This document shows, piece by piece, positions 21,081-52,914 of a stretch of 64,000 bases of DNA. The stretch spans positions 77,001-141,000 of the forward strand of contig CAUJNA010000522.1 of assembly GCA_963377175.1 (NCBI GenBank). The letters are read 5' to 3'. The DNA is from Effrenium voratum (lineage: Eukaryota; Sar; Dinophyceae; Suessiales; Symbiodiniaceae). Position 1 is the first letter of the stretch, and every line of letters starts with the position of its first letter. A program made the position numbers and the translations under genes. The notes beneath the pieces were generated by a model, which was not told where the DNA came from, searched no databases, and was given only the letters and a program-made list of their open reading frames with translations.

Positions 21081-21086
21081 CGCGCC

Positions 21087-27440: not shown

Positions 27441-30400
27441 GAAAAACCAAAATAGCCAGCTGTAAATAAAGCCACAGAATGGTCCCGATTTGTACCCAGC
27501 TTCAACTTGAGGTTCGGGACTAGCCCAGTCCCTCGTTGAGACCTGAGGTTCGGGTCTGGCCCAGCCCCTCGTTGGCACAGTCGAAGCGGTGTGACTCTCA
27601 CACGTAGCAGCTCGATGCTTCCGTGGATTTCCTCGCGCAATGCAAGCAAGAGCGAGTTTCAATGGCGCCGGTTGGAGGCACTTTGCTCGAGCACGAAAAC
27701 GCCGGAGGATCACACACACAATTAATGACGTGTACAACTGGATTTCTTTGGTTTCCCGACCAGCACAAGGTCCATGTTCATGGTTTCCATTACACTTCTT
27801 AGACAACGAGCTACCAAGTTCAAAACTCCATGAAACAACTCTCCATGGTTTCTTGATTGGCAGGGGTTTCTTCGCATACCTTTGCTTCAAGCCGTAGCGA
27901 CACCCATCAAACTCATGACTGGTGCCATCATGAACAACCTCATGCAGTCTCTCGTCCTTCCAATAATCGCAACTTCCAGGCAACTCAAACAAAATCGCAG
28001 CACGTTTCGTCATGGCATGTCGCTTGATTTCAACGAATCGTCCAAACAATTTCCAAAATTCCTTCTGTTTGGCCTCGGTTTTCTCTGCGGTATCGATTCC
28101 GCGAGTCTTGTTGAGGCGTGCCCATGTTGAGGCGTGCCCAAGAACAACAAATCGGAAGGTTTAGTAAGCACATGTCTAGCGATTCTCCCCCCGTACTCGC
28201 TCATTAAGTCATCGACCAAAGTGACGGTCACGACCTGCGGCCCCGTATGACGGGCAAGGGTAGTGAACCAGTTACGAGGCTCGGAACATGCCAACAGCAC
28301 GATGGGCCGAGACAAGTCAACACTATACAAGGTGACGATTGTGCGAGTTCTCATACCAGGAAGCGAGACATGCAGCGGAGCGCGAAGCACACCACCGTCA
28401 TGTTTGAACCATCGCGAGTTCAATACCCGGTGCTAACTGTGGTTTGTGCTTCACCGCGATGCGATATGGAACAAAACAACGACCAGGAACAAATTGCTCA
28501 TGACTGGTATGCAGACAGCGCATAAGCAGCTTCAACCGGAGCAAAGTTTCCAAAGCAAGGTCATTGACACATTTTAAGTCAACACGCTCGTTCGACAGCT
28601 CTTCAACGAATGCAGCCAGCACGGACTGCATGTCGACATCACCGGACCCAACATGAATTGGTCGTGGTCGCGGAGATCGCTCCCGCGCCGGTACAGCAAC
28701 CGGGACGGGGTGAAATTGCCAAACTGCGCGTTCAACCCACCCATCGATCCGTTCACATTGCAACCCAGAGTCAACCCTGTCCTCAACCTTAAGCCATGAC
28801 CCGTTCCTCAGAAACCAAGTGGAACGCAGCCACTTGCTCCCGAACGGTGTCACAACCGCGAGTGGAGGTTTCACACGCATCAGTCTGGGCCCTTTGGCAA
28901 CAACAACCGGATCATGTCTTTCATGCTCATGCAATCCTTCTTTAGATGTCAGGCCGGACCACCACAGGTCCGGGGGCATGATCGGAATGTGTGTGTACGG
29001 AAATGTGGGAACTCCGTCAACTGTTCCCGAAGCAGTCTGCATGGTCCCTTTTATGGGATCACACGTGGGTGTGAGCGCCTTGAGGGTATCCGGGTCAGAC
29101 AGCAAACTCGGGTCGAGCAGACCAATCTGCAAGCATGCATGTTTCCACTTGCGTCCATCATTGAACGCCTTGGTGTAGATGTCAGCCGCCATTCTGTCGG
29201 TGACTTCATACGCCAAATACATGTAATCACGTGGTGAACATCTCATGCATCCACGAAATGCAAACACCATGGCTTCTCTCAAGGTGGCGCATCGTAGGGT
29301 TTCTCCCCGACCGCACGACACCGATCATAGCCTTGTTGTCGTCATAGAACACAAAGTTCGGTGACTTCTTGAGAATCCGCTGTAACAACTTTAGAGCAGG
29401 CATACCCGTAGCTCTCATGGCAACATCGGCCGCAACAATTTCGGCCTCAGGAGTTGAGTGACTCACACAACCCTGTCTTTTCGAGCTGCCAGACAACGGA
29501 AACCGAGTATTGGGCCCTTGTATATTTAAGTGTCCACAAGAGGTGGAACGCAATGATTCAACACATCCCGCAAAATCAGCCTCTGCGTACAAGGCCAGGT
29601 GCACGTCGTCCATGGGGTCTCCGACCCAACCGACCATGAGCCAATGTTTCGTATGATGCACATAACACATCAAATGGCGCAAACCCCGATCATCGGAGTC
29701 GGTCCACCTGTGCACACATTTCGTGCCAAGCGATTCACTTGCCGCAACAAATCGAAGCGGGCAATCCGCGCACCGTACAGCAACTTCATTAGTACGCTAG
29801 CGGCATGCGGAGCAAGGTGTCCACGCACGGGCTCCTTCGTGGCCAACTCAGGAGTCCCTCCCCGCTGGTCCGGCGCTGTGGCAGAACCGTCGGTGGGCAC
29901 AAGATTGTTACACCAATTGCACACGACTGACGGTCCCTCTTTTGCAGGCTTCCGTGAGACGTGATTCTTTGTTTCCTCGTGCAACTCAGGAGTGACAACC
30001 TTATTCAATTTTACATCGCCCGCCACCTCAAGATAGCGGTCGACACATGAACGTAGGAACTGTTCCATGTCATAGGTCACCGTTGTGACGCGGTGTCCGT
30101 TCCCGAGGGTGACGTTTCCCTTGCTTTGATTGCAACCAAGGTACATGTCAAGTCCAGTCTCGGGTTCAATCTTTAAACGTGTACGCAGCATGCTCCATCC
30201 CTGGGCAAGGTTCTTCTGTGGCCCTGCCATTTTGAAGTCATCGACATACACAACCAGAACAAGCTGGAGCTTTTCATGAATGTACACTGACGGCCATTCC
30301 TCACCGATGGGTTCAAAGCCAACGGCGCGCACCGATTCATCACAGTGCTGCTCCCAAAATGTTCCCGCATCAGGATGTCCGTACAGTGCCTTCCTCAGTG

Positions 30401-31640
30401 GAACAACTGGCCTCCTGTACTTGCCCCAATTGCATTCACTCGGCACAGCCTCAGGTGGCAATTCTATCCAACATGGCGTGCCTCTCAGTGTGGCCTGAAT
30501 GTACGCTTGCACAGCGTCGGCCATCTGCACATCCCAACCATCATGACAACCCAAGAAATCCGCCCAACGCGAGGCCTCAAACGAAGCAGGAGAGTTCCCC
30601 AGGTCTTGAAACATCGCAGCTTCAAAGCTTTGATTCTTCACTTGGTTCCCCAGCAACACGCCTCTACCTTTGAACTTCCTCTTGGGATCGCCGACAGGCA
30701 ACTGTGAGTGCTTTTCAACGCAAATACCATGCGCGCGAGCCATGTGTGTCTCTTCCCCTTTCGCTTTTGCCTCCTTGGCCACAGCGTCGTATTCTCGCAC
30801 TGCACCAAGGTCGAAGACGCCCTGGTCGATTAATCCCGACCATTCTTTCTTCAGATGCCAGGGCATCAGGGTTGGTCAACATTTCTTTTCGGCCAACCGG
30901 CCTGGACACCAATGCGTCGAAGAATCGAACAACTTTCTCGGCTTTCTCTCTGTGCTGTATTAGCTCAGAGGTCACACGCGGCATCGATGGGTATTTCTTG
31001 GCTTCGCCGTCTTCTCCTATCGCAGGTAACGCGAGCGGCACTTTTCCTGAGACTACCTCAGCATAATTTTTTCATTCGTGCCAGGTAAAATCCGTCGGCG
31101 TATCATCTGCAGGATCCGTCCCCGATATCAATTCAGCTTCGTCTCTCTGACGCCCAATGACTGACGCAACTGCCTTCGTCCAATTTGGAGTCGACCTCGA
31201 CCGCTCCTCAGACTTGAACTTCCAGGCATATATTACTACCAGACACACAAATTCTTTCTCAAGCTGAACGTTTCGTCTCAAGACATCTTGGGATTGCTAG
31301 GATTTACAACTATCCTGACCCAGTCAAGCTCAGCCAAATGTTTCCCATCCTGTGGGTTCTTGATCTTTACTGCCATTCAACTCCACCCCAGCGGTTCCGA
31401 AGCATTGCTCGAATTCTCTTACCACCGGGCATCTGCAATGTCTGCGTCTCAGCTGGCGCAGAAACCTCAGATTCCTTACTCTTGGGTCCATCTTTCTTCT
31501 TCTTGCCACCACCCTTCACCTCGGCTTTCTCTTCCTCGGTGTAGTATTTTCTCATCATTGCCCATTCATCAGGAGTGTGTTCTGGAGGTCTCGTTGTCTT
31601 CATCAACCTGAAGCCATCCTTCCCAACGGGATATGGCCTT
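27441..31640 (-). pseudogene. Copy A: RT, RNase H and methyltransferase-like region, frameshifted
   Basis: The 398-residue frame at 29670-30866 carries Copia RT with the VVYVDDFKMAG box. 29227-29715 carries RNase H (YAEADFAG, STPEAEIVAADVA, YDDNKAMIG). 28398-29321 and 28010-28423 continue into the C-terminal extension. The PCTGGSS motif seen in copy C has been replaced by a short duplication near 28125-28142. The 580-residue frame 26307-28049 runs without a break from the FELPGSCDYW part of the extension into the ORF3 N-terminus. This shows that the two regions were once one reading frame. Confidence 0.85.
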
Positions 31641-33107
31641 CCACCTTGTCGATCTTAACCTCCCTGCCATCATCGTTGATATATGTTACGCCATCCCCAG
31701 GTAGTCCAGCTGACACATGTGGAAGATCGGGCTTCACAACTTCCTCATCGCCCTTGGCATGTCCATCGCCTTTCCCTCTCGAAGAACTCGGCCTAGCATC
31801 CTCTTCCTCCACGTGACCCCCCTGATCTCCGACGGTTACTTCCGGACCTTCATCAAGCAGTAGACCAGCGATCTGATCGACCTCATCGTGCAACAGTCGC
31901 TTTTCGTCACTCTGCAATAACTCGGGCTCGTAGTCCTCATCTTCGATCAGGTGATCACGTGCGTCCAGACCGATTGCATCGACAGACATCTCAATTCCCT
32001 CCAAAGTTTCATTGGCAGCTTTGTGCTTCTGTTGTATCGGGAATGTCAGAAGTGACTTGAGGATCATCCTCTCCGTCTGATGTGGCATTCTCAATCGAGG
32101 TGGAACCTTTGCCTTCTTGATGTTCAGCTCTGCACCCGCAAACGCAGTGAGGGCCCAAGCCCGATACTTGTTCGCCCAATGCATCCCGGTACTCAACACA
32201 TATCCAGCAAATATACCAGTTTCTCCCCTTGGCTCGAATTTCTCCCTCTTCTCCCCTCGTGCTTCGCTCGGCTTGAAGTCCACAAGCGCACCAAAAGGTA
32301 TCTTCTCGCCTTTGAACTCCTCACCATGCAGCCTCAACCAAGCGCGTGATCCATTCACCTCTTCAACGTTCATCAGATGGCACAGCGTGGTGATGGCCTG
32401 CACCCAGTAGCACGTGGGTAGACTGGCATGTACAAGACAAGCAGAAGTCTGGTCAATGATGAACTGATTTGTTCTCTCAGCAAGGGAATTGTTCTCGGTC
32501 GTCCAGGCAAGGACAGGTCATGGTTCAGCTTCAACTCAACGCATGCGTTGATCAGTTCTGGACCATCGTCCGAGTACACCTGCTTGATCTTCCTCCTCCC
32601 GCAGAAGTGCTTGATGGCCCTGACAACAGAGTCAGTGTCCCTTCTCGCAGTTGGATAAGCCGTGATAAGCCCGGTATATATATCTCGAATGATGAGTGCA
32701 TATCTGCCTTCCACCTCATGATCCCCTGATACCGTCACGAAATCGAACGTTACCAGGTCCCCGAACGTCTTTACCTCCCTCGAGAAGGACCCTTCGTATA
32801 CATCAACTTCGATTCCAGCATCTGGATCATCCTCATCAACCTCTTCCCCGTTAGCTTCGGCATCAGCATGACGACATGGGTCTGGCCCAACGTCCACTGG
32901 TACTTCCTCAGCTACGGGAGGCGGGCGCACCGGACCGGCACCTCCGGGTGGTCCGAAGTCGAACGCTCCATGATGATGTTCGCCCTCAACCTCTGCGGAT
33001 TCACCGGCAGCGGCGGGTATGGCATCATTGTCACCATCATCATCTTGATCCGCCTCATCGTCCGTGACCAATGCCAATACTTTCGAAAAGTGCTCCTTGA
33101 TCTCAAC
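31641..33107 (-). pseudogene. Copy A: integrase remnant, 5'-truncated
   Basis: Frames 31603-32403 and 32373-33206 match the integrase part of copy C: TFGDLVTFDFVT (first Asp), VYSDDGPELINA (second Asp). A frameshift just after LPGRP destroys the LAERTNQ motif that holds the catalytic Glu in copy C. The His/Cys zinc-binding segment upstream (about 47 residues in copy C) is cleanly missing. Homology ends near 33107, where plus-strand family B coding sequence begins, so protease, gag and the 5' LTR are lost. Confidence 0.8.
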
Positions 33108-34808: not shown

Positions 34809-34813
34809 TCTTT

Positions 34814-35163
34814 TGTCAAGAGACGGCAAGGTGACGTCCCGTGGGACGCTATGCACCGAACCCTCAAGCTGTAATACCAACCACGTAGAAAGGTGTATAC
34901 GGACGATGCCGTTATAGCCGAACCCGTGTAAACGTTGTAAGGGAGAAGGAATGATAGTTACAACAGTGGTCCTGACAAATGCAGCGCAAGCGAAGTGTTT
35001 TCCGCTCTCAATGCCGATCACGTATGTATGCAGTCACACATCAGATCTTGAACCTCAATTGTGTCTTGAGCCAAATGGCGATCAATGGAACTTGGGAAGC
35101 AACACCAACAAGGACCTCAGAACAGCTACCCAATTTCGGCACGGGGCCTAGAGGGTTTTAACA
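34814..35163 (-). repeat. 3' LTR of copy C
   Basis: 350 bp, TG...CA ended. Identical to the 5' LTR except for a patch at about 34984-35007, where the 3' copy reads GCGAAGTGTTTTCCGCTC and the 5' copy GCAAGAGTTTTCGCTC. A polypurine run (AATGGGGGA in sense, plus-strand 35164-35172) abuts it. Confidence 0.95.
35065..35079 (-). promoter_or_regulatory. Spliced-leader-like sequence in the 3' LTR of copy C
   Basis: Sense strand reads GCCATTTGGCTCAAG, the last part of the dinoflagellate spliced leader with one T missing. It lies about 85-100 nt into the LTR. The identical copy in the 5' LTR is at 52811-52825. Confidence 0.6.
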
Positions 35164-35791
35164 TCCCCCATTTGGGTCGCATTGTTCATCATGCGGTCCA
35201 AACACCACAAAACGTTCCACTGGCCACGGCTTCAACTACGAAATCGTGTCGTGCATTCTTTTACTTGCTATCACTACACCGTTCATTCGCTGTGAAACAT
35301 GCCGGGTTCGATTGTACGAAAAGTGAAACATTCATCCTCCAATCGAAGCACACATCCATATGCAGGTGTATATAATACACAATCGTCACGTCATTTGACC
35401 ACCAATGAACAATCCAGCTGCCGCATTTGCGCATCGCGCAGCTGTCATCCATAAATGGGTTGGCCACAAAAGTCCACCAGAGGCGCCTGCTCGTGATCGG
35501 TCTGCATATTCCGGCAAAGAAACATCGGTGAGTAATCAATGCAAATCATAGCCATTCCAGATACCATGGACAATGCATAAATAATGAAAAGATATCATCT
35601 ATAAGGTAATAGTTCCATCCATGAATATCCAGAGCGTCATAGTCATCGGAATATGTAACCATGTACACATCCATTCAACTTGGATATATGAAATCATATC
35701 ATAATGTAGAGTCGTTCCGTCGCAATGGTGTTGATGAGACGCAAGCAACAGATGGGGACTAACCCACATCGTGCCGCAATCAGCATCTTCA
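35164..35791 (-). other. 3' untranslated region of copy C
   Basis: Between the stop codon of ORF3 and the 3' LTR. Conserved with copy A (6978-7651), including the terminal polypurine run. No ORF is supported. Confidence 0.75.
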
Positions 35792-38700
35792 CTACGCATA
35801 CCGGTCCCCAATGGACAGTCTGTGAGTGCGTCGACGGAACTCCTCGTCCAAGTTCTTCTGGGCTTCTCGTGCCCGGACACACTTCTTGTTGTAGTCCTCT
35901 GGCAACCAGTGCCCTTTCCGAAGGCACCAATCCAGCAGGGGTGTGTCGCATTTGTTCGGGTCGACGGCCGAGATGATGGCCGACGTGTAAGTGATGACCC
36001 GTGTAACCATTTTGCCAAGGTTTAGGCCATCCCTCACGAATGATATATACTTACAGTTGAAAGCTAGTGCAAAACATCTGAAAATAATATCACCCACCGG
36101 GTGCACTCGGTCCTTGACCAGGAGCTTCATTTCTTCCTTGGTGACATCGAGGATTCTCGCTGCAATCCACAGCTTGTAGAATGTGTAAAGTCCCTCGCAT
36201 TTGCACACCATCATACGAATATATTCGTCACGCTCCTCAACCGATCGGAAGGCTCTTGTCCGAACATTCTCCGACTGAGAAATCTTCGTTATTGTTGATG
36301 GCAATAGTATACCTTCCTGATCGTGCTCAGTGATGTTGGGGTACCTCTTGAAATCATTGTGGTAAGGGCAGCCCTCTCTCCCCTCGAGCTTGGCATTCAT
36401 CGTTCTCTCCTCACCACCCTCGAACATCCCCCACATCTTGGACATCTGGAGTGCGATAAATCCTGCCATGTACTGAGCCTCACGCGGCTCGTCAAGGCAG
36501 ATCGCCATCCGTTGGGAACTTATAATGTCCCGTGACGCCAGATCGGTGTCGCGGTAATGCCAACCGCTGTCTTCTTCTTCTGACGCATAGCCGGATGTAT
36601 ACCCTTGCGTGTCCATGTCGTCATCTTCTCCCGGAACTTCCTCCGCTTCGTCTTCATCCTCCTGTGCTGCCGCATCGTGGTTAGCTTCTTCCTGTGCACG
36701 CCTGGCATCTCCAGAGACGTTGGGGTTTTGGTTGTCCTCCTCGTCATCGGATTTGATGTGAATGTAATACCTTCCGATGGAGATCAGTTGTGCTTCGCAT
36801 TCCAGGCATAAGCAGAAGCAGGTGGGGATCGCGGTCGCACATGATGGACATATTCGGCACCTCAGTCCTTCCCATGTCTCGTCATTCAGGATGACGACTT
36901 TGCTGATTTCGTCCCGGACCTCGTTGACCTGTGCATTGAACTCTTCCATCTTGTTGATTCGATAGAGTTCGCAGGCACGATTAACCATGTCAACGATGTA
37001 GTGCAGATTATCGGCACCTGTCTCAGTCTCCGGCATCCTCTCGCTGATCTTTGCGACGTTCTGGAGGAACATCGCAGCCGACTCTTGGGAAGAGTTGACA
37101 AAGCCAGGGCAGATCTCGTTCTCCACACACTTCGAGTACGCCCTCTTGATGTCAGCGTACTCCAGGCGCTTCCCTCCGTTGCTTTTGCCAATCCAAATGG
37201 ACTTGACCTCATAGAACGGGATCACGTCAAAGACCATGAAAGTCCCATTAGCCGCGACTCCAGCCCCATACCGCGCGAGGGTTGCACTGGGAATATAGAT
37301 GATCGCAATCGGATCCCCTCTCCTCACGTTCCGTAGCGTTGTCTTCGTCGCCACGTTCATCTCATCCCATGGAGCAAACGCCCCGAAGTGCAGTGCTAGC
37401 CTGTTGCCGCCATCGATTCCGCCGGGGACTAACCCACAGCGTACGATGCTTGGCAGGTTTTCCACATACGTCACATGGAATGCTCCTCCGAGAGAATCAC
37501 CCATTCTTGCGGAATACCTATTCGCCAGTGCGGATGAGCTCATGAATCCAAAATCACTGTGACCGGTTGTGACTCGGATGCACCAAGGTCTGTACCATCC
37601 ATCGCATCTGTTGAACATCCTGTCGATGTCGTCCCGATCCACGCCAGCTTCGGTCATTTCCTCCCTGGCTGCCCTCGTGTCGTTCGGGTTCATGATGCTC
37701 GGAAACCTTGCTGCCAAAACCTGGAATCTCGATTTTCTGCTTCCGGATTCCTGCCACTTGATCACCTCCATGATGCCCATGTATCGTTTCGCTCTCGTGG
37801 TGTATGGTGGGAATATGTCGTTGTTCCGGTCGTCAATGACAGCATCAATGTCGACCCATCCACCCTCGTCGCACCTGAAAGCACTTCCTCGGCAATTGCC
37901 GATCTTGTGTCGAAGGACTCTGCATAGGTCGTGAGATAGCTGGTTTGCTTGGTCCCTTGTAGTAAATACCGAGCGATCATCACCAATCCTGCATAGTGGA
38001 GCACCGTCGAAAGGAGCAATGCAGAAGTTGACACTCTTGCCAAGTTGCATCACGTCCACTTGCTCAAGGATTGCACCTTTGGGAAAGTATTTGGGGTCAA
38101 CGATGGACGCATACGCCCATGGCAAGTGCACATCACTCACATCGCCATACTTCGGGATGTAGCACGGGATGGTGTCGCATCCCATCTCAAGCGTCTTCTT
38201 GAATGTCCTGCTGTCCCCGCACGGGTTGTAGGTGAGGTCGACGCCACCACATTGTAGCTCTCCTCCCTCAGCCGTGTCAGCCATCTCCACCAAATTAATA
38301 GTGTAGCTGTACATCTCAATTGTTTCTTTCCCTGCTTGTCCCCCTTTCTTTCTTTCCTTGGACGTTGATGAGGACGGTTCCTCCGTATCCCCCATGTCTT
38401 CATCAGATGAAACAGGGTCACTGCTGAGTAGCTCACGGAGCACCTTCATCGCCTTCTCATTTCCAGCAGCCTCCTCAATGTCCTTGCAGTCGCCGTCGTG
38501 GGCCAGGTTCGCGCACTTCTTGCAGATTCCCATATCTCCCATGCACTTCTCCATTGACTCCAGGAATCCTAGTGCCGCTCTCCGCCCGTCGATCACTCGC
38601 TGCTTCTTGTCTTCCTTCTCAGCATTGGTTTGAGAACTCCGACTCGGGTCTGGTGCTTGACCAAGACCCTCATCTTCGCCCTCCGTGGCCTTTCTCTTGG

Positions 38701-41700
38701 AACCTTGTGCAGAGGGCTCGGTGATCAGGGATCGTGGATGTCTGGGCTTGACCTTGTTCATGATGTCAAGCACCTCCTTCGTGGGCACGCCGAGCTGTGC
38801 GGACGGTCTGTTCCGCTTTCTGTTCTGGCCCGTCGTGTGGGTCACGTTCCCAGCGAGGTGTCGCACTATTGACTGCTCGAACTCCCTCTTGATCTTCCAT
38901 GCATCCTTCCACAGTGGCAGTTCGTGCTGGAAGTACGACATCACCTCAAAGAATCCCAACACCATCTCGACGACGTCTCCCAAGGATTCCTCGTTCGTGG
39001 TTTGTCCCAGGAGTTCATACATCGTTCCTTGGTCGAGCACACTCTTGATCCAGGACGAATATGCCACATTGCCAAGATCCTTGCCTATCACGAAGATGGA
39101 CATCCTCTCCTCGACTCCCTCGGAATTCTTGCACACGATCACATCCCGGGATGCGCACAATTGCTTCCCGTGACCGTTGTTGTAGAACTGCGCTGCTTGA
39201 TCCACAGTCATGCTCACGAATCCCACGTGAGAAAGCTCCTTCTTCAGCCTTGAATACACGAGCTCCCGTATGATCGTGATCATGGCCTGGATATTGTTGA
39301 CGTCCACCATGAGGTTTTGAAGGTCGGGGATTGCCACCACGCATTCCGCGAAGAGGCGCGTGTACATTTTCTTCCCCTCGATAGACATTGCAATACCGTT
39401 CGTGTCCGCGTTCCAGTTCGCGCAACAGTTCACGCAAGAAGAGGGATTGTACTTCGAATTCGGTCCGAGCACCTTCGACTTGCTCATCTGCATCTCTTTA
39501 GCGCAAAGTTCGCAGATAAACTTGCTGAGCTCCGTGACCGTATACCATCGAAGACGTTGATCACCGACATCGGCTTTCCCAAAAGCATCCTGCTCGCCGT
39601 GTCCTTCATCTTGCTGCTCTTGTTTCCTCTTCGACTGTGCAGTGAAGGTCGGCTTGTACTCGAATTTCACCTTCGATTCCTCCATGTTCTTCGGGATGTT
39701 GAATCGAAGGTCGGGCTCGTTTATGCACGTCCCCTCCAGCTCACACACAAACGCGTTGCTTGGTGCGACCGCATCGATGGATTTCTCAATCAGCAGTCGC
39801 TTCAGGAGGAAGTGTTGCAAGTTCGAGCTCCCAGGGATCTTGTAGTTCTTTCCTGTGAGCGCATGGACCACGCGCCACAGGCGATCGTTCTCGGTCACCA
39901 GCGCGCCTGCCGCCTTGCAGATCTCGCTAACCTTGTTGGCGATCGTCCCCAAGTCCCCTCTTCCACCATGGAAAGCAACATCGCGATTCACGCACACCAC
40001 GACCAGGCCCTTGCATGTGTTGACGAGGTCAGATATCGCCTTCTGCAGGGAGTCGATGATGGGGTTGGCGGTCACCTGCCATCCGCATCCTCTCATGCAC
40101 ACCCAATCATATAGCGACATCCAGATGTGCACCGACATTGGTGAGTCATCCATGTCTCGCCTCCGCCGTTCAGCGATGAGCTTATCCAGCTTCTGCAATC
40201 GGGAGATGATATTCAACGTGTCGTTGGGTGAGGAGACTTGCTCACTCGACCCATAGTATGATCTCTCCTCGATGTTTGTCCATCCCTGTTCGTTGACCAT
40301 CATCTGGAAGGTCTTCGTGCTCCCTTTCGAGTTGACGGCCCTCAGGGGCCAATCCAGGACCAAGAAGCTCTTCTTGTGGATCATCATGTCGCGAATCGTC
40401 GCCTCGCCAATGGGGCTCCTCTTCTGCCTATTGATAATCCGGTTCAACTGTCCAGGTGCGTTGTCCGGGTTCTTCTCCGCCTGAATCAACGCGTTGATGG
40501 CTTTGGCGCCCGGAAGGCGTCCAGTAATCAAGCATCCTGTTTGGGCACACAAGAAAGCATACAGCTGTAGCCATGCCGCATTTCCCTTCCCAACATAGGA
40601 AAGAATGATCTTCTCCGCGCTGGTCTTCTCCTCGAAGTGCAATAGCGAAGAGGTCAGGCATCTCAGCATACACTCCCAATATGTTGCGTTCTTGCCTTCT
40701 GCAAGACACGGCCCAAATACAGTTTGTATGATTGGGTACCCCGTATTGTTGTCTATGTTGAATTTCACATTGACAGTCGCTCCGCCCAAAGTGGTACCCC
40801 CTTCGAATGAAGTGTAGGTATCGTGTCCAGCAGTTGGGTTGATAATTACCCATCTGTCGTCGTCACCGCCAGAGTTCATTCGGAAAATGGAGTCGATGAT
40901 CTCGTTGTCGATCTTGACAGCATCGCTGGCTTGCGACCCCCCACTTGGAGCTCCCGGCTGGGGGACTGACCCACCAGCGGTTTGACTCCTTTGCCCGGAG
41001 CTTGATGCCGACTTCTGCTGTCGCTCCGTCTTCCGTGGCGGCTCCGTCTTCGATGAGCCCATCACCCACCATGTCGGCTCTTCCCCAACCACGAAATCCT
41101 CGGGGTACTTCTCCAGTTCCCTCTCGATTTCATGAATCGTGCAGTATTTATTCTGGAAGAATTCGATCATGACGTCCTTCTCGGCCTTCTTCTCGATCTC
41201 CTTCATCCAGCTTACCCACTTGCGCCGATCTTGGTTCTCAGCGGCCCTGTCAGCCGCGTGCGGTGCCAAACTGATGGAGTTGATGTTCATCGCAGGCAGC
41301 TTCGACTCATAGATCATATCGATGCACCATAGGAAATCCCTGGCGTACTCAATCTCCCGGTAGAGATCGTTCAGCTCCCTTTTGTCTGGACGGAAATAAG
41401 CTGTATACGACTGATCTTTGGAGTCCTTCTCACCGAGCAATGGCTGCAATCTCCTCATGATGAACGATACGCACATGAGCGAATTGACCGCCCCGATGCA
41501 CGCATCAGAGATGTCACTGGGGGTTGACCCACAGATCATCCAGCGCAATAGGTTGTTCTGGCTGGCATTCTCATCCCTCCTCAGTGCATATGCGAGGTTC
41601 TTCATCGATGCCTGCAGCTCATTCTGGTAGACCAACCCAAGGTCCCAATTCTTCTGGTAGTCGTCCTTGGAACCACGACCGTAGGAGTCGATCTTGGGAG

Positions 41701-42742
41701 CCTTGATCACGCTCAACGTGAACACTTTCCCCCAGTTTCGATCTCTGTATCTTGCGATTCTCCGGTCGTGCCTCTCAAACTCTGCAGTTGTCTGGAACTC
41801 CTCAGAGCTCCTCCACCTTCTCGATGACGATGCCCTAGATGACTCGTCGTTGATGAATTCTTTGTACACCTCCCCAACCGGGGTGTTCTGGTGGAATGCT
41901 GCTTTGAACGACCGTTCATCGTTGTCCTCGGCCACGCCTAGTGCGAGATCCCAGATGTTCGCGATTGATCTCAACATATCCGCCCCTTCCATGCAGTACT
42001 TGGTTACGTTGAGCAACTCGGGGTTCTTCGCCAGCATCGTTGCCTCACCGCAAAGTTGGTTCAGCGCCGACACGATCTTCTTTCCCTTGCTGCAGAATTC
42101 CCTCCATCCAAGCATACATTCGTCGGCAGAAAGCTGTCCGAAAACTTTGCTGATGAACTCTAAGGCAACCCTCATAGACTGCCCTTCACCTTTCATCATC
42201 CCGCGGCCCTTGGCAGAGTAGTACGCAGAGTATGCATAAATAGCGGGGACGCCGATGTCCTCGATCCACTTCACGCACATACCCAGGTCGCTGCTCATCT
42301 CCATCCTCTTGGGTATCCTCTTGCCTTCCTCGATGGCGTTCTTCACCAAATTTCCCAAGAAGATTGCTGCTTGCCTAGATTTCCCAACAGGCACGCAGAA
42401 GAACTCATTTGCATTGACGACATTCGGATTGGCAGTCATCTTGATGATATTCTCCAGAACCCAGGAAAACCCAAAATAAGCAGCTGCAAATGAAGCCACG
42501 GAATTGTCCCAATATGATCCCAGCTTCAGATTGAGGTGACGAACTCGTCCAGCTCCTTCCTTGAAGCTTGGGGTTCGGGACTGACCCAGCTCCCCGTATG
42601 CACCAGAGGTTCGGGACTGGCCCAGCACCTCGGTTGTGCAGTTGGGGTGGTGCAGATTTCGCTCGCAGTAGCTTGGTGCTTCCGCGATCTCCTTCGCGTA
42701 ATGCAAGCAAGAGCGAGTTTCAACGGTGCCGGTTTGAGGCAC
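35792..42742 (-). CDS. ORF3: 2,316-residue accessory polyprotein with a Tpt1/KptA-like domain
   Basis: About 100 residues precede a conserved start-like IIKMTANPNVVNANEFF; a hydrophobic stretch (SFAAAYFGFSWVLE) lies just before it. Residues 100-1500 are mostly unrecognised. They include a low-complexity linker (570-620), a hydrophobic-strand segment VVVCVNRDVAFHGGRGDLG near 950 and a CELC...CVNCC cluster near 1080-1110. Residues ~1595-1865 match RNA 2'-phosphotransferase: QLSHDLCRVLRHK (catalytic Arg-His), DEGGWVDIDAVI, CIRVTTGHS, FHVTYVENLPSIVRCGLVPG, LALHFGAF, then a strand pair ending in NGTFMVFDVIPFYEV. A Cys-rich ribbon (CRICPSCATAIPTCFCLC, ~1965) and an acidic stretch follow. The family removes 2'-phosphates from RNA using NAD+. 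The role in a retroelement is unknown. It lies -1 relative to ORF2. Confidence 0.85.
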   Translation of the reverse strand: MPQTGTVETRSCLHYAKEIAEAPSYCERNLHHPNCTTEVLGQSRTSGAYGELGQSRTPSFKEGAGRVRHLNLKLGSYWDNSVASFAAAYFGFSWVLENIIKMTANPNVVNANEFFCVPVGKSRQAAIFLGNLVKNAIEEGKRIPKRMEMSSDLGMCVKWIEDIGVPAIYAYSAYYSAKGRGMMKGEGQSMRVALEFISKVFGQLSADECMLGWREFCSKGKKIVSALNQLCGEATMLAKNPELLNVTKYCMEGADMLRSIANIWDLALGVAEDNDERSFKAAFHQNTPVGEVYKEFINDESSRASSSRRWRSSEEFQTTAEFERHDRRIARYRDRNWGKVFTLSVIKAPKIDSYGRGSKDDYQKNWDLGLVYQNELQASMKNLAYALRRDENASQNNLLRWMICGSTPSDISDACIGAVNSLMCVSFIMRRLQPLLGEKDSKDQSYTAYFRPDKRELNDLYREIEYARDFLWCIDMIYESKLPAMNINSISLAPHAADRAAENQDRRKWVSWMKEIEKKAEKDVMIEFFQNKYCTIHEIERELEKYPEDFVVGEEPTWWVMGSSKTEPPRKTERQQKSASSSGQRSQTAGGSVPQPGAPSGGSQASDAVKIDNEIIDSIFRMNSGGDDDRWVIINPTAGHDTYTSFEGGTTLGGATVNVKFNIDNNTGYPIIQTVFGPCLAEGKNATYWECMLRCLTSSLLHFEEKTSAEKIILSYVGKGNAAWLQLYAFLCAQTGCLITGRLPGAKAINALIQAEKNPDNAPGQLNRIINRQKRSPIGEATIRDMMIHKKSFLVLDWPLRAVNSKGSTKTFQMMVNEQGWTNIEERSYYGSSEQVSSPNDTLNIISRLQKLDKLIAERRRRDMDDSPMSVHIWMSLYDWVCMRGCGWQVTANPIIDSLQKAISDLVNTCKGLVVVCVNRDVAFHGGRGDLGTIANKVSEICKAAGALVTENDRLWRVVHALTGKNYKIPGSSNLQHFLLKRLLIEKSIDAVAPSNAFVCELEGTCINEPDLRFNIPKNMEESKVKFEYKPTFTAQSKRKQEQQDEGHGEQDAFGKADVGDQRLRWYTVTELSKFICELCAKEMQMSKSKVLGPNSKYNPSSCVNCCANWNADTNGIAMSIEGKKMYTRLFAECVVAIPDLQNLMVDVNNIQAMITIIRELVYSRLKKELSHVGFVSMTVDQAAQFYNNGHGKQLCASRDVIVCKNSEGVEERMSIFVIGKDLGNVAYSSWIKSVLDQGTMYELLGQTTNEESLGDVVEMVLGFFEVMSYFQHELPLWKDAWKIKREFEQSIVRHLAGNVTHTTGQNRKRNRPSAQLGVPTKEVLDIMNKVKPRHPRSLITEPSAQGSKRKATEGEDEGLGQAPDPSRSSQTNAEKEDKKQRVIDGRRAALGFLESMEKCMGDMGICKKCANLAHDGDCKDIEEAAGNEKAMKVLRELLSSDPVSSDEDMGDTEEPSSSTSKERKKGGQAGKETIEMYSYTINLVEMADTAEGGELQCGGVDLTYNPCGDSRTFKKTLEMGCDTIPCYIPKYGDVSDVHLPWAYASIVDPKYFPKGAILEQVDVMQLGKSVNFCIAPFDGAPLCRIGDDRSVFTTRDQANQLSHDLCRVLRHKIGNCRGSAFRCDEGGWVDIDAVIDDRNNDIFPPYTTRAKRYMGIMEVIKWQESGSRKSRFQVLAARFPSIMNPNDTRAAREEMTEAGVDRDDIDRMFNRCDGWYRPWCIRVTTGHSDFGFMSSSALANRYSARMGDSLGGAFHVTYVENLPSIVRCGLVPGGIDGGNRLALHFGAFAPWDEMNVATKTTLRNVRRGDPIAIIYIPSATLARYGAGVAANGTFMVFDVIPFYEVKSIWIGKSNGGKRLEYADIKRAYSKCVENEICPGFVNSSQESAAMFLQNVAKISERMPETETGADNLHYIVDMVNRACELYRINKMEEFNAQVNEVRDEISKVVILNDETWEGLRCRICPSCATAIPTCFCLCLECEAQLISIGRYYIHIKSDDEEDNQNPNVSGDARRAQEEANHDAAAQEDEDEAEEVPGEDDDMDTQGYTSGYASEEEDSGWHYRDTDLASRDIISSQRMAICLDEPREAQYMAGFIALQMSKMWGMFEGGEERTMNAKLEGREGCPYHNDFKRYPNITEHDQEGILLPSTITKISQSENVRTRAFRSVEERDEYIRMMVCKCEGLYTFYKLWIAARILDVTKEEMKLLVKDRVHPVGDIIFRCFALAFNCKYISFVRDGLNLGKMVTRVITYTSAIISAVDPNKCDTPLLDWCLRKGHWLPEDYNKKCVRAREAQKNLDEEFRRRTHRLSIGDRYA

Positions 42743-45700
42743 CTTGCTCGAGCACGAAAACGGCGAAGGATCACACCCACAATTATAGACGTGTACAACT
42801 GGGTTTCTTTGGTTTCACGACCAGCACAAGGTCCATGCTCATGGTTTCCATTGCATTTCTTAGACAACGAGCCACCAAGTTCAAAGTTCCATGATACAAC
42901 TCTCCATGGTTTCTTGATTGGCATGGGTTTCTTTGCATATCTTTGTTTCAAGCCATAGCGACACCCATCAAACTCGTGACTAGTCCCATCATGCACGACC
43001 TCATGCAGTCTCTCATCTTTCCAATAATCACAACTTCCAGGCAACTCAAACAAAATCGCAGCTCGTTTTGTCATGGCATGCCGTTTAATTTCAACGAACC
43101 GTTCAAATAATCTCCAAAATTCTCTTTGTTTGGCCTCGATTTTCTCTGCGGTGTCAATGCCGCGAGTCTTGTTGAGGCGTGCCCATGATGATCCCCCCGT
43201 GCAAGGCCCGGCGAAGAACAACAAATCGGAAGGTTTGGTAAGCACATGTCTGGCGATTCTCCCCCCGTACTCGCTCAGTAAGTCATCAACCAGAGTTATG
43301 GTGACAACCTGCGGCCCGTCATGGCGGGCAAGAGCAGTGAACCAGTTACGTGGTTCGGAACATGCCATCAGCACGATGGGCCGAGCCAAGTCAACACTGT
43401 AAAGAGTGACGACTGTGCGAGTTCTCATACCAGGAAGCGAGACATGAACAGGAGCGCGAAGCACACCACCGTCATGTTTGACCATCGCGAGTTCAATACC
43501 CGGCGCTAACTGTGGCTTGTGCTTCACCGCAATGCGATACGGAACAAAACAACGACCAGGGACAAGCTGCTCGTGATTGATATGCAGACAACGCATGAGC
43601 AATTTCAATCGGAGCAACGTTTCCAAAGCAAGGTCGTTAACACACTTCAACTCTATGCGCTCGTTCGACAGTTCTTCAACAAATGCGGCCAGCACGGACT
43701 GCATGTCAACATCCCCGGACCCGACGTGAATTGGTCGTGGTCGTGGAGACCGTTCCCGCGCCGGTGCAGCGACCGGTACGGGATGAAACTGCCAAACTGC
43801 GCGTTCAACCCAACCATCAATTCGCACACATTGTAGCCCCGGGTCAACTCTATCCTCAACTTTGAGCCATGACCCATTCTTCAGAAACCAAGTGGAACGA
43901 AGCCACTTGCTCCCAAACGGTGTCATAACCGCGAGTGGAGGTTTCACACGCATCAATCTGGGTCCCTTGGCAACAACAACCGGATCATGTCCTTCATGCT
44001 CATGCAATCCCTCTTTGGATGTTAATCCAGACCACCATAGGTCCGGGGGCATGATCGGTATGTGTGTGTACGGAAATGTTGGAACTCCGTCAACTGTCCC
44101 CGAAGCGGTCTGCATGGTCCCCTTTATGGGATCACACGTGGGTGTGAGCGCCTTGAGGGTATCCGGGTCAGACAGCAAGCTCGGGTCAAGTAGACCAATC
44201 TGCAAACATGCATGTTTCCATTTGCGCCCATCATTGAACGCCTTGGTGTAAATATCGGCCGCCATCCTGTCGGTGACCTCATACGCCAAGTACATGTAAT
44301 CACGTGTGAACATCTCATGCATCCACGAAATGCTAACACCATGGCTTCTCTCAAGGTGGCGCATCGTGGGGTTCCTCCCCGATCGCACGACACCGATCAT
44401 AGCCTTATTATCGTCATAGAACACAAAGTTCGGTGACTTCTTGAGAATCCGCTCTACCAGCTTGAGAGCGGGCATACCCATCGATCTCATGGCAACGTCG
44501 GCCGCAACAATCTCGGCCTCGGGAGTGGAGTGACTCACACAACCCTGTCTTTTAGAGCTGCCAGACAACGGAAACCGGGTATTAGGCCCTTGTATATTCA
44601 AGTGTCCACCGGAGGTGGAACGCAGCGAGTCAATGCATCCCGCAAAGTCAGCGTCCGCATACAAGGCCAAGTGCACATCGTCCATAGGGTCTCCAACCCA
44701 ACCGACCATGCGCCAATGTTTGGTATGATGCACATAGCACATCAAGTGATGCAAACCCCGATCATCGGAGTCAGTCCACCTATGCACGTTCCGTGCTAGG
44801 CGATTCACTTGCCGCAACAAATCGAAGCGAGCAATCCGCGCACCGTACAGCAACTTCATCAGTACGCTAGCGGCATGCGGAGCAAGGTGTCCACGCACGG
44901 GCTCCTTCATGGCCAACTCAGGAGTCCCTCCCCGTTGGTCCGGCACTGTGGCAGAACCGTCGGTGGGCACAAGATTGTTACACCAATTGCACACGACTGA
45001 CGGCCCCTCTCTGGCAGGCTTCCGTGAGACGTGATTCTTTGTTTCTTCATGCAACTCAGGAATGACAACCTTATTCAACTTCACGTCGCCCGCCACTTCA
45101 AGATAGCGGTCGACACAGGAACGTAGGAACTGTTCCATGTCATAGGTCACCGTTGTTACTCGGTGTCCGTTCCCGAGAGTGACGTTTCCCTTGCTTTGAT
45201 TGCAACCAAGGTACATGTCAAGTCCAGTCTCGGGCTCAATCTTCAAACGTGTACGCAACATGCTCCACCCTTGGGCAAGGTTCTTCTGCGGCCCTGCCAT
45301 TTTGAAGTCGTCGACATACACAACCAGAACAAGCTGGAGCTTTTCGTGAATGTACACTGAAGGCCATTCTTCGCCGATGGGCTCAAAACCAACGGCACGC
45401 ACCGACTCATCGCAGTGCTGCTCCCAAAATGTTCCCGCATCTGGGTGTCCGTACAGCGCCTTCCTCAACGGGACGACTGGTCTTCTGTACTTATCCCATT
45501 TGCATTCACTTGGCACGGCCTCCGGTGGCAATTCAATCCAACACGGCGTGCCTCTCAAGGTGGCCTGTATATACGCCTGAACAGCGTCGGCCATCTGCAC
45601 ATCCCAGCCATCATGACAACCCAGAAAATCCGCCCAACGCGAGGCTTCAAATGAAGCAGGGGAGTTCCCCAAATCTTGAAACATCGCAGCCTCAAAGCTT

Positions 45701-46848
45701 TGGTTCTTCACTTGGTTCCCCAGCAACACGCCTCTACCCTTGAACTTCCTCTTAGGATCACCAACAGGCAACTGTGAGTGCTTTTCAACGCAAATGCCAT
45801 GTGCGCGAGCCATGTGTATTTCCTCCCCCTTCGCTTTTGCTTCTCTGGCTACAGCGTCATATTCACGCACCGCGCCAAGATCGAAGACCCCCTGGTCGAT
45901 TAATCCCGACCACTCTTTCTTCATTGATGCCAATGCATCAGGGTTGGTCAACATCTCTTTCCGGCCTACCGGCCTGGATACTAAAGCGTCGAAGAATCGT
46001 ACAACTTTCACAGCCTTCTCTCTGTGCTGTATTCGCTCAGAAGTCACGCACGGCATCGATGGGTACTTCTTGGCTTCACCGTCCTCGCCTATCGCAGGCA
46101 TTGCGAGTGGCACTTTTCCAGAAACTATCTCAGCAGACTCCTCCCATTCATACCAGGTGAGGTCCGTCGATTCGTCGACCGATGGATCCGTCCCCGATGC
46201 TGTCTCAGCTTCGTCTTTATGACTCTCCATGACTGATGCAACCGCCTTCGTCCAGTTTGGAGTCGACTTTGATCGCTCCTCAGACTTGAACTTCCAGGCA
46301 TAAATTACCACCAGACACTCAAATTCTTTCTCAAGCTGAACGTTTCGTCTCATGACGTCTTGGGACTGTTGGGAATCCATGAGAACAACCACCCCGTCGA
46401 CAGGATTAACAACAATCCTGACCCATTCAAGCTCAGCCAAGTGCTTCCCATCCATTGGGTTCTTGATCTTTGATATGTTCTTCCGCAATCCCCAATTGTA
46501 CTGCCATTCTACTCCACCCCAGCGGTTCCGAAGCATCGCTCGAATTCTCTTACCACCGGGCATCTGTAATGTCCGTGCCTCTGCCGGCGCGGAAATATCA
46601 GACTCTTTACTCTTGGGATCTTCCTCTTTCCTTTTGCCACCGCCCTTCACCTCGGCCTTCTCTTCCTTGGTGTAATATTTACTCATCATCTTCCATTCTT
46701 CAGGAGTGAACTCTGGAGGTCTCGATGTCTTCATTAGCCTGAATCCGTCCTTCCCGACAGGATACGGTCTCCCGGCCTTGTCGATCTTAACCTCCTTGCC
46801 ATCGTCGTTGACGTACGTGATACCATCCCCGGGTAGCCCAACTGACAC
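42526..46848 (-). CDS. ORF2: reverse transcriptase, RNase H and methyltransferase-like extension
   Basis: About 1,440 residues. The first codon listed is not a real start (GTG read in VSVGLPGDG); the frame continues upstream to a 1-nt lesion near 46888. RT occupies ~305-560 (KFKGRGVLLGNQVKNQ, VQMADAVQAYIQATLRG, VVPLRKALYGHPDAG, VVYVDDFKMAG near 511). RNase H is at ~680-860 (YADADFAG, STPEAEIVAADVA, YDDNKAMIG, MAADIYTKAF). A long extension follows. At ~1105-1390 it contains FFAGPCTGGSSWARLN, FELPGSCDYWKDERL, HEFDGCRYGLKQ and KCNGNHEHGPC. The Gly-Pro-Cys and Glu-Leu-Pro motifs resemble motifs IV and VI of cytosine-type DNA methyltransferases. The RT assignment is secure; the methyltransferase one is an inference. 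Confidence 0.9.
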   Translation of the reverse strand: MSVGLPGDGITYVNDDGKEVKIDKAGRPYPVGKDGFRLMKTSRPPEFTPEEWKMMSKYYTKEEKAEVKGGGKRKEEDPKSKESDISAPAEARTLQMPGGKRIRAMLRNRWGGVEWQYNWGLRKNISKIKNPMDGKHLAELEWVRIVVNPVDGVVVLMDSQQSQDVMRRNVQLEKEFECLVVIYAWKFKSEERSKSTPNWTKAVASVMESHKDEAETASGTDPSVDESTDLTWYEWEESAEIVSGKVPLAMPAIGEDGEAKKYPSMPCVTSERIQHREKAVKVVRFFDALVSRPVGRKEMLTNPDALASMKKEWSGLIDQGVFDLGAVREYDAVAREAKAKGEEIHMARAHGICVEKHSQLPVGDPKRKFKGRGVLLGNQVKNQSFEAAMFQDLGNSPASFEASRWADFLGCHDGWDVQMADAVQAYIQATLRGTPCWIELPPEAVPSECKWDKYRRPVVPLRKALYGHPDAGTFWEQHCDESVRAVGFEPIGEEWPSVYIHEKLQLVLVVYVDDFKMAGPQKNLAQGWSMLRTRLKIEPETGLDMYLGCNQSKGNVTLGNGHRVTTVTYDMEQFLRSCVDRYLEVAGDVKLNKVVIPELHEETKNHVSRKPAREGPSVVCNWCNNLVPTDGSATVPDQRGGTPELAMKEPVRGHLAPHAASVLMKLLYGARIARFDLLRQVNRLARNVHRWTDSDDRGLHHLMCYVHHTKHWRMVGWVGDPMDDVHLALYADADFAGCIDSLRSTSGGHLNIQGPNTRFPLSGSSKRQGCVSHSTPEAEIVAADVAMRSMGMPALKLVERILKKSPNFVFYDDNKAMIGVVRSGRNPTMRHLERSHGVSISWMHEMFTRDYMYLAYEVTDRMAADIYTKAFNDGRKWKHACLQIGLLDPSLLSDPDTLKALTPTCDPIKGTMQTASGTVDGVPTFPYTHIPIMPPDLWWSGLTSKEGLHEHEGHDPVVVAKGPRLMRVKPPLAVMTPFGSKWLRSTWFLKNGSWLKVEDRVDPGLQCVRIDGWVERAVWQFHPVPVAAPARERSPRPRPIHVGSGDVDMQSVLAAFVEELSNERIELKCVNDLALETLLRLKLLMRCLHINHEQLVPGRCFVPYRIAVKHKPQLAPGIELAMVKHDGGVLRAPVHVSLPGMRTRTVVTLYSVDLARPIVLMACSEPRNWFTALARHDGPQVVTITLVDDLLSEYGGRIARHVLTKPSDLLFFAGPCTGGSSWARLNKTRGIDTAEKIEAKQREFWRLFERFVEIKRHAMTKRAAILFELPGSCDYWKDERLHEVVHDGTSHEFDGCRYGLKQRYAKKPMPIKKPWRVVSWNFELGGSLSKKCNGNHEHGPCAGRETKETQLYTSIIVGVILRRFRARARCLKPAPLKLALACITRRRSRKHQATASEICTTPTAQPRCWASPEPLVHTGSWVSPEPQASRKELDEFVTSI

Positions 46849-49800
46849 GTGTGGAAGGTCGGACTTCGCAACCTTTTCATCGCCCTTAGGTGTCCATCTC
46901 CTTTCCCTTTTGAGGAGCTCGGTCTAGCATCTTCTTCTCCTGCATGATCCCCCCGATCTCCGGCGATTACTTCCGGGCCATCGTCGAGCAGTAGACCAGC
47001 GATCTGATCGACCTCATCGTCAAGCAGTCGCTTCTCGTCACTCTGCAACAATTCAGGCTCGTAGTCCTCATCATCGATCAGGCGGTCACGTGCATCCAGA
47101 CCGATTGTATCGATAGACATCTCTATTCCTTCCAAAGTCTCGTTGGCAACCTTGTACTTCTGTTGTATTGGGAATGTCAGAGGAGATTTCAGAATCATCC
47201 TCTCCGTCTGATGTGGCATTCTCAACCGAGGTGGAACCTTTGCCTTCTTGATGTTCAGCTCTGCACCCGCAAATGCAGTAAGTGCCCAAGCACGATACTT
47301 GTTTGCCCAATGCATACCGGTGCTCAACACATATCCAGCAAATATACCAGTTTCCCCTCTCGGCTCGAACTTCTCCCTCTTTCCCCCTCGTGCTTCGCTC
47401 GGCTTGAAGTCCACTAGCGCACCAAAAGGTATCTTCTCGCCCTTGAACTCCTCGCCATGCAGCCTCATCCATGCACTCGATCCGTTCACCTCTTCGATGT
47501 TCATGAGATGGCACAGAGTGGTGATGGCCTGCACCCAATAACACGTGGGTAGACCGGCATGTACTAGACAAGCCGAAGTCTGGTCAATGATGAATTGATT
47601 TGTTCTTTCAGCAAGGGAATTGTTCTGCGGCCGTCCAGGCAGCGATAGGTCGTGGTTCAGCTTCAGCTCCACGCACGCATTGATCAGTTCCGGGCCGTCA
47701 TCTGAATATACCTGCTTGATTTTCCTCCTCCCGCAGAAGTGCTTGATAGCCCTGACGACTGAGTCAGTGTCTCTTCTCGCGGTGGGATAAGCCATGATAA
47801 TTCCGGTATATATGTCCCGGATGATGAGCGCATACCTGCCTTCCACTTCATGATCTCCTGATGCCGTCACAAAGTCGAACGTCACCAGGTCACCGAACGT
47901 CTTCACTTCTCTTTTGAATGCTCCCGTTCGTGATCTGAAGTGTCTCATCTTTGCCTTGACGCATGATTCGCAGAAGGGATTTCGGTATCTGTGTGTAAGC
48001 AAATGAGCTATGGAGTTGGCGTCCTTCTTGAGGACTCCCACTTTCCTCTTTATTGATGATCCTTCGTACACGTCTACTTCGATTCCGGCATCTGGATCAT
48101 CTTCATCAACCTCTTCCTCGTGAGCTTCGGCATCACCATGTCGATGCGGGACTGACCCAACATCTACAGGTATTTCCTCAGCCACGGGAGGCGGACGTAC
48201 CGGACCGGCTCCTCCGGGTGGCCCGAAGTCGAATGCCCCGTCGTGGTGTTCGCCCTCGGCCTCTGCGGACTCACCGACAGCGGCGGGTGTGACGTCGTTC
48301 TCATCGTCACCTCCCTGATCTGCCTCGTCGTTCGTTACCATCGCCAATACTTCCGAAAAGTGCTCCTTGAGGTCGTCTATCGTAGGGCGATGCCTGTTAC
48401 TCCGAAGTTTACCATCACTCACTAGGTACGGGATGTCGTCCTTGACCTGCAAGTGCACGAATCCCTGCTTTGGCGTAACCATGAAAGGTAGTTTACCAGG
48501 CATCCAGTGAAATGCATAACCCATCTTCATGCATCTCCTCCCCACTGACAATACCGTGGGTGTCTCATCCAATACATGCGGCTCGACAGTCTCGTCCAAC
48601 TCGTCCACGACTATCTTGGCCACATCAGATGTGGAAGTGGAACCATTCGCGGTCTGGAACACGATCTCGTCGTCATCTTTCACGATGTCGACACCCAGGC
48701 TCTTCGCCTTGGCTCTTCCAATGAGATCATGACCACATCCGGTGTCCATCAACCATTTCACCCGTTTGCTGATGCACGTTGACATGGCGAAAACGTTCTT
48801 CGGCATACCATGCTGCTTCTTCCAGTCGACAGCCGATTCCTTGATCTCGTCCTTGTTCCGATCATACTCGAACATTATGCTGCTCTCCTTGGTCACCGGG
48901 AAGTAGTGCTTCTTATATACATCATCCACTACTTCTCTCAGTATCTTCGCACGTATCAATGATCGTTGGACTTGATAGGCTGACAATTCACGATGATCAC
49001 TGCTTTTGAACTTTTTCTCGTCGACGTACACGTACTGATAAGGCTCATTCTCATTGTCCTCATAACCGTACCATTCCCCTTTTCGTTCCCATTGCCTTCT
49101 CTCGTCTTCGAGGTAGGTGATCTCCCCATTCTCGTCGACGTCGAGCACTTCCTTGAACCACACCATTTTCTCGGGGATCTCGGACTCGCCAGACCATCTC
49201 GATGATTCGCTCATCGCGTCGTCATCGTGCTCGTGGTAGACAGTCTCGGCTTCGTCCGGTTCGACCTGATCAACGTCCTTCTTGAAGCTTACCTTCCCTG
49301 CAGGAGCCGATTGCTTCAGGACTATCGCGGGCATTGCGATGGCCCTCCTCGCAATGGCAGGCGCTGCGGCTTTGGCGGCAGCCTTCGACTTGGCTTGCGC
49401 CTTATCATTTGACGTTGCTGGAGCTGAATTGTTCTTGATGAGCTCATGCCTGTACTTACAAGCGCTTCCCCTATCGCACTTCCCCTTCTGAAACGCGAAG
49501 CATGCTCCATCATCCCTCTTTGGTGACGATGATCTGGACTTGGATTTGCCCTTTCCTTTCCCCTTGGACATGCTCTCCAACTTATGCTCCGTCTTCTTGC
49601 TGTGGGAAAAAGTGCATTCATTCCCTTTCACGCACCCCTTCGCCGATTTGAAGTGGTACCAGCAGGGGTTATCCTTGCTTCCGCCCGGACTCTTGCCTCT
49701 GTCGCTGGCACCGTCGGACTTGCCGTTCTTGCCAGCGTGGCCCTTTGCCTTGGCTTTTGGGAGCACAGGAGCGGCATCAGGTCCACCGGGTTTCCCCTTT

Positions 49801-52909: not shown

Positions 52910-52914
52910 TCTTT

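Follow-up and report, generated by a model that had tools for sequence, protein, structure and literature searches.

We analysed 64,000 nucleotides of the dinoflagellate Effrenium voratum (GenBank assembly GCA_963377175.1, contig CAUJNA010000522.1, positions 77,001 to 141,000 of the forward strand), hereafter called the window, to which all positions refer unless another locus is named. The window contains a Copia-type retrotransposon with long terminal repeats (LTRs), designated copy C, whose polyprotein carries downstream of the reverse transcriptase (RT) a domain resembling the RNA 2'-phosphotransferases Tpt1 and KptA. The features of the element, including its open reading frames (ORFs), are as follows, from the 5' to the 3' side.

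52910..52914, minus: target site duplication AAAGA, 5 bp, 5' side
34814..52909, minus: whole Copia-type LTR retrotransposon (copy C), 18.1 kb, delimited by the LTR pair, TG..CA ends and target site duplication
52562..52909, minus: 5' LTR, 99.1% identical to the 3' LTR over 352 aligned bases
52548..52561, minus: primer binding site GGTTATCAGCCGTA, 14 bases, directly after the 5' LTR
46734..52463, minus: ORF1, gag with CCCH-type zinc fingers, aspartic protease and integrase (sub-threshold Pfam matches, Copia order)
42526..46848, minus: ORF2, Copia RT (RVT_2), RNase H (read by eye) and a C-terminal extension
35792..42742, minus: ORF3, 2316 aa, 3' part of the polyprotein containing KptA (translation, Pfam)
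37187..37954, minus: Tpt1/KptA (PTS_2-RNA) domain, residues 1597-1852 of the frame 35792-42742 (Pfam, alignments, predicted fold)
35164..35173, minus: purine-rich tract AAATGGGGGA before the 3' LTR (read by eye)
34814..35163, minus: 3' LTR (LTR self-comparison)
34809..34813, minus: target site duplication AAAGA, 5 bp, 3' side

A preliminary description, made from the letters alone, had named the carrier a Copia LTR retrotransposon, and this holds: the LTRs are paired and end in TG..CA, a 5-bp duplication flanks them, the Pfam family RVT_2 matches with 36.5 bits (cut-off 31.6), and the integrase lies upstream of the RT. The matches in ORF1, Asp_protease_2 (22.3 bits), rve (19.6 bits) and zf_CCCH_4 (20.7 bits), were all below cut-off. 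An unbroken copy on contig C700 is 99.4-99.7% identical to copy C, and its LTRs of 349 bases are identical to each other, indicating that the family was recently active. Its frame is open from an ATG at L126:1541 to L127:8704 (5,554 codons) and encodes, in this order, a sub-threshold protease and integrase (rve 19.1 bits at residues 1542-1612, below the cut-off of 32.6), RVT_2 (33.6 bits at residues 2240-2426, cut-off 31.6) and PTS_2-RNA (31.2 bits). Just outside its LTRs, this copy has the same 38 bp on both sides as a direct repeat (L126 1056-1093 and L127 9683-9720), where copy C has its 5-bp duplication. Open frames of 5,562-5,563 codons were found at 5 of the 138 scored places of the KptA domain in the genome and at 6 of the 121 scored places of the RT. 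The domain had originally been placed in a separate third ORF; the domain stands, but ORF3 is a fragment of what is, in unbroken copies, a single frame of ~5,560 codons.

All the landmarks quoted for the domain were recovered in the minus-strand translation of 35792-42742, namely LSHDLCRVLRHK, GGWVDIDAVI, IRVTTGHS, FHVTY...SIVRCGL, LALHF and NGTFMVFDVIPFYEV, and the position first given, 37150-37965, agrees with the bounds 37187-37954. Pfam reported PTS_2-RNA (PF01885) at residues 1599-1811 of the copy C frame with E 1.9e-7 and 31.8 bits, above the curated cut-off of 26, and with 33.2 bits in an older, diverged copy in the window (copy A). When the copy C domain was cut out and scored with a small hidden Markov model (HMM) built from 12 prokaryote and phage KptAs, it reached 15.0 bits, and the best of 2,000 shuffles reached 3.2. 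In an alignment of 52 rows (the two window copies and 50 KptAs that we chose from three locus searches, one alignment query giving 69 loci), 12 columns were invariant; IMG/VR scans with two KptAs, meant to broaden the alignment for the structure model, had added little. The key residues also aligned against seven prokaryote or phage KptAs. Taken together, the domain is very probably a member of the Tpt1/KptA family.

Tetrad positions were transferred by aligning E. coli KptA with the enzyme of PDB entry 6e3a, assumed here to be the Tpt1 from Clostridium thermocellum described in PMC6333775. The essential tetrad of Tpt1 consists of Arg18, His19, Arg68 and Arg121, which engage the 3'- and 2'-phosphates of the splice junction (PMC6333775). 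In copy C the tetrad is complete, with Arg1611, His1612, Arg1723 and Arg1781 of the frame, and the first and fourth Arg are among the 12 invariant columns. The codons lie at:

37907..37912, minus: tetrad Arg-His, Arg1611 and His1612 (alignment; tetrad from PMC6333775)
37574..37576, minus: third tetrad residue, Arg1723, in IRVTTGHS (alignment)
37400..37402, minus: fourth tetrad residue, Arg1781, in GNRLALHF (alignment)

In copy A, the Arg-His pair has become Arg-Arg. The copy C domain probably retains some Tpt1-type chemistry.

A structure prediction had been called for as a check, and Tpt1/KptA was the sole fold matched at E<=0.001, with a model whose alignment held true KptAs. This second AlphaFold2 model, made with 50 more diverse KptAs in the alignment, had a predicted local distance difference test score (pLDDT) of 71.1 and a predicted template modelling score (pTM) of 0.58. 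All 18 PDB chains found by Foldseek at E<=0.001 were Tpt1/KptA enzymes, mouse and human included (best E 1.7e-6), with template modelling scores by target length of 0.31-0.70 and 253-276 alignment columns for 256 residues. The next match was DarT1 (E 0.11), an enzyme that uses nicotinamide adenine dinucleotide (NAD+). The window domain is thus predicted to comprise a winged-helix RNA lobe and an NAD+ lobe.

The abundance of the domain was assessed in this one genome (1.156 Gb, 3,699 contigs). The window KptA domain gave 1,856 first-look candidates, of which 138, copy C included, were scored. All 138 were 99-100% identical to the window domain and stop-free, 92 of them at the top score. The RT part gave 4,567 candidates, of which 121 were scored. 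At 32 of these 121 RT places, a listed KptA place lies on the same strand, 7.68-7.77 kb downstream; the other 89 have no KptA among the matches listed, which is not evidence of absence. To estimate selection, we compared copy C with the older copy. Over 278 codons of KptA, replacement substitutions (dN) amounted to 0.065 and silent substitutions (dS) to 0.65, a dN/dS of 0.10. The ratio was 0.017 for the RT, 0.025 for the integrase, 0.13 for the whole 2316-aa part (5 stop codons set aside) and 0.09-0.16 for the rest of the 3' part. Judged by these ratios, KptA is evolving under constraint between the subfamilies, less than the RT and about like the rest of the 3' part. At 30 loci, copy C itself included, we counted 26 silent and 0 replacement changes relative to copy C; these young loci were chosen by top protein score and are therefore not counted as evidence of selection.

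The domain had been described as lying inside a Copia element, which is correct, but it is not confined there: another Copia family and a long interspersed nuclear element (LINE) of the same genome carry it as well. A whole-genome Pfam search for PTS_2-RNA gave 558 candidates, of which 150 were scored; all 150 exceeded the cut-off and fell into several score classes. The second Copia family is represented by an 11.5-kb element on contig C1112, with 143-bp LTRs that are 99.3% identical and a target duplication GAGAC. It has the same 14-base primer site after its 5' LTR as copy C, and a frame of 1114 aa with PTS_2-RNA (61.4 bits) that ends just before the 3' LTR. Its RT frame had no Pfam hits; by blastp, its RT is 41% identical to that of the window, its integrase 31% and its gag 23%. 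A related copy (C3199) had a sub-threshold RVT_2 match of 21.4 bits (cut-off 31.6). We also considered whether the two Copia families have the whole 3' module in common and rejected this, blastp similarity there being limited to KptA (E 1.8e-4).

The LINE lies on contig C1887. Its ORF1, a frame of 2048 aa, bears KptA (PTS_2-RNA 158.4 bits, E 2.4e-46), and the next frames match Exo_endo_phos (29.9 bits, cut-off 24.5) and RVT_1 (57.6 bits, cut-off 29.6). KptA, AP-type endonuclease and RT are thus consecutive open frames on the same strand of one contig, and the element is a non-LTR (LINE) retrotransposon. The KptA domain is therefore present in two retrotransposon classes, Copia and LINE, of one genome. 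Among seven high-scoring LINE copies, 28 of 182 codons varied by silent changes only and 5 by replacement. A frame on C502 resembles the LINE ORF1 (27% over 377 aligned columns), and a near-identical KptA is present in a frame on C1386. In the LINE-type ORF1, a stretch that precedes KptA reads by eye like an OTU protease (L130, L134); Pfam reported none in either locus. A helicase-like family is seen at C1241:45300-55200 (L129), where PTS_2-RNA (64.5 bits) shares a frame of 1958 aa with a sub-threshold AAA_30 match; other hits in the genome score similarly. The best PTS_2-RNA match of the genome, at 174 bits, is an ORF of 266 aa on C276, which is perhaps the host's own Tpt1. The Arg-His-Arg-Arg tetrad is kept in the LINE, the helicase-like family and a short solo gene. 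In a 20-row KptA tree, the branch leading to the window family is 7 changes per site long and the deep forks are open, so we make no claim on the source of the KptA or on the number of captures. Scans of IMG/VR with the window KptA, the RT part and the LINE KptA yielded no relatives.

Most retrotransposons need no more than gag, protease, integrase, RT and RNase H. That two classes in one genome also carry an RNA-repair domain under constraint points to an RNA problem that the elements have to solve on their own, whether it lies in damage to the RNA, in the primer ends or in a host defence directed at RNA. We propose that processing of the polyprotein would release KptA, which would then work inside the virus-like particle or close to it as an NAD+-dependent RNA 2'-phosphotransferase. 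KptA would strip 2'-phosphates left on the genomic RNA by host cleavage and healing, or, alternatively, remove a 2'-phosphate from the end of a primer made of an anticodon-loop tRNA fragment, so that reverse transcription could start or read through. Viral KptA has been described as an enzyme that cleans up RNA ends (PMC9503650). We assign a probability of about 0.5 to this overall explanation, a Copia-encoded KptA near the polyprotein C-terminus that acts in the removal of RNA 2'-phosphates. Its functional part, repair of RNA ends or scars on behalf of the element, is tentative and falls somewhat short of even odds. The odds look evenly balanced that at least two unrelated retrotransposon classes of one dinoflagellate lineage recruited an active Tpt1/KptA, with an NAD+-dependent RNA-repair or RNA-marking step in retrotransposition. 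If KptA works, the copying of these elements may include a step of RNA repair. The finding also bears on a long-standing puzzle, raised for bacteria, namely the function of Tpt1 in the absence of a yeast-type RNA ligase that would leave 2'-phosphates (PMC6333775).

Among the tRNA genes, an Asn(GTT)-like one was the best of the 15 examined from 63 listed, matching the primer site at its anticodon arm in 10 of 11 core positions and 11 of 14 bases. The complement of the site reads CTGATAA in what we take to be the loop position, as in the half-tRNA primer of Drosophila copia. A pattern search for the primer tRNA was discarded, as its 3 hits equalled the 3 of the control. Contigs C1 and C2223 account for many of the 63 tRNA genes listed, which suggests that the assembly contains bacterial contigs.

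Several observations weigh against the proposed explanation. At the level of sequence, similarity to KptAs is low (22-31% in alignments, with insertions) and the HGT of KptA is replaced by HVT. When all six reading frames of the window were scanned with the 12-KptA HMM, the copy C frame reached only 11.5 bits (E 0.0096), copy A was not listed at E<=10, and a stretch at 54474-55106 on the plus strand ranked first. A phmmer search of the copy A domain against PDB chains gave no matches, a two-row profile searched against PDB did not find Tpt1, and the hhalign result for the copy A domain against seven KptAs was weak (24% probability, E 0.0008). At the level of structure, the first AlphaFold2 model, whose alignment combined the two window copies with 31 close bacterial KptAs, was of low quality (pLDDT 52.8, pTM 0.40). 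It had 68 PDB matches, of which the top 17 were Tpt1/KptA throughout, but with E values of 0.017 or higher. The second model is no independent test, because the true KptAs in its alignment favoured that fold. The 138 scored KptA places, being the best candidates, are biased to young copies, so that their near-identity is of little use for judging selection. In the second Copia family the tetrad His is missing and Lys replaces the third Arg; some carriers may therefore be inactive. As to priming, a full match to the primer site was found in none of the 15 tRNA genes examined, on contigs that may not all be dinoflagellate. LINEs are not known to use tRNA primers. Priming is therefore not the reason common to all carriers, and repair of the RNA template or evasion of host RNA cleavage fits all of them better.

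Evasion of the host would make KptA a means of counter-defence: the host cuts retrotransposon RNA or tRNA, or adds ADP-ribose or phosphate marks to it, and the enzyme of the element reverses the damage. Viral KptA has been proposed to mend RNA cuts inflicted by the host in this way (PMC9503650). Since Copia and LINE both carry the domain, the need it answers is not tied to one replication route. However, Pfam finds neither an RNA ligase nor a cyclic phosphodiesterase partner in the polyprotein, and we know of no RNA-cleaving defence in dinoflagellates. We regard this alternative as unlikely.

In capping by Tpt1, 5'-phosphate ends are the acceptor for ADP-ribose. The element enzyme could likewise cap or mark 5'-phosphate ends of its own RNA or cDNA and so protect or tag them, for which the predicted fold offers both lobes. 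The window family and the LINE keep the full Arg-His-Arg-Arg, whereas capping alone might not need the tetrad, and we consider this role quite improbable. A shade less probable still is that the domain was kept as a non-catalytic RNA- or NAD-binding module. The altered tetrads of the second Copia family and of copy A would be in line with it, but copy A is an old, interrupted copy, and Arg-His-Arg-Arg is retained in copy C, its 100%-identical copies, the LINE, the helicase-like family and the short solo gene. Retroposed genes are abundant in dinoflagellate genomes (PMC11453091), but a hitch-hiking host Tpt1 fragment in some copies, or an assembly join, is very hard to reconcile with a KptA in frame within the 5,562-5,563-codon open frames, a near-constant distance from the RT and a dN/dS of 0.10 between subfamilies.

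Known systems offer several comparisons. The window domain resembles Tpt1/KptA (PF01885; E. coli KptA, Clostridium thermocellum Tpt1, human TRPT1), a member of the ADP-ribosyltransferase superfamily, in its profile match, its Arg-His-Arg-Arg and its predicted fold. It differs in being ~75 residues longer (256 versus about 180), with several insertions, the longest before IRxxxGHS, in having HVT for HGT and in being embedded in a retrotransposon polyprotein. Copy C shares with Ty1/copia the TG..CA LTRs, the 5-bp target duplication, the primer site, the purine tract and the order protease-integrase-RT; unlike Ty1/copia, it measures 18.1 kb and belongs to a family with one ~5,560-codon frame and more than 2,500 residues downstream of the RT, KptA included. 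SymbioLINE-Dnmt and SymbioDIRS-Dnmt3 likewise show a host-type enzyme captured by more than one class of dinoflagellate retrotransposon (PMC5890265). There the function is DNA methylation and the classes are LINE and DIRS, Copia being said to lack the methyltransferase (PMC5890265); here an RNA-repair enzyme is found in Copia and LINE. KptA is also known from selfish elements such as jumbo phages, sawfly baculoviruses and Bodo saltans virus, and it is part of polyproteins, as in the Copia element, in Beihai picorna-like virus and a nidovirus (PMC9503650). Those carriers are viruses, and the main text of that paper does not contain "retrotranspos-", "retroelement" or "transpos-". No retrotransposon with KptA was found in the open-licence literature, a search that spellings with a prime (2'-phosphotransferase) may escape. 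What is new is thus a retrotransposon-captured accessory enzyme from a family not reported there in the literature searched; captured enzymes and KptA in viral polyproteins were already known.

The LTRs of the family contain GCCATTTGGCTCAAG, which equals the dinoflagellate spliced leader in its 3' core except for one missing T. It occurs in four of them, on the minus strand at 35065-35079 and 52811-52825 (both LTRs of copy C) and at 6890-6904 (one LTR of copy A), and in one LTR of C700. It has persisted even though copies A and C share only about 74% of their LTR sequence, and the LTR of the second Copia family lacks it. The motif may mark the RNA start, as a relic or mimic of trans-splicing. 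The 21-base spliced leader itself has 251 exact matches in the genome, and the reversed control has 0, which identifies the host as a dinoflagellate.

The remaining features of the window include the older element:

6619..10712, minus: 3' half of an older element of copy C's family, with its 3' LTR near 6636-6979 (match to copy C)
8973..10013, minus: KptA domain of copy A, older and diverged (Pfam 33.2 bits)
23921..33100, minus: rest of the older element, 5' end missing; its match to copy C begins where that of 6619-10712 stops

The stretches 6619-10712 and 23921-33100 apparently form one older element that was split by a 13.2-kb insertion (10712-23921). The insertion has inverted ends near CCCAATAGAC[T/C]AGATTAG, and its six ORFs (295-477 aa) gave no Pfam matches at E<=0.1. 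The stretch at 54474-55106 on the plus strand is a degenerate KptA-like sequence with GHS and HAT...GIKPG motifs; it scored E 5.4e-5 with the 12-KptA HMM and 16.5 bits, under the cut-off, in Pfam. Finally, units of about 75 bases are repeated in tandem at 62381-63150.

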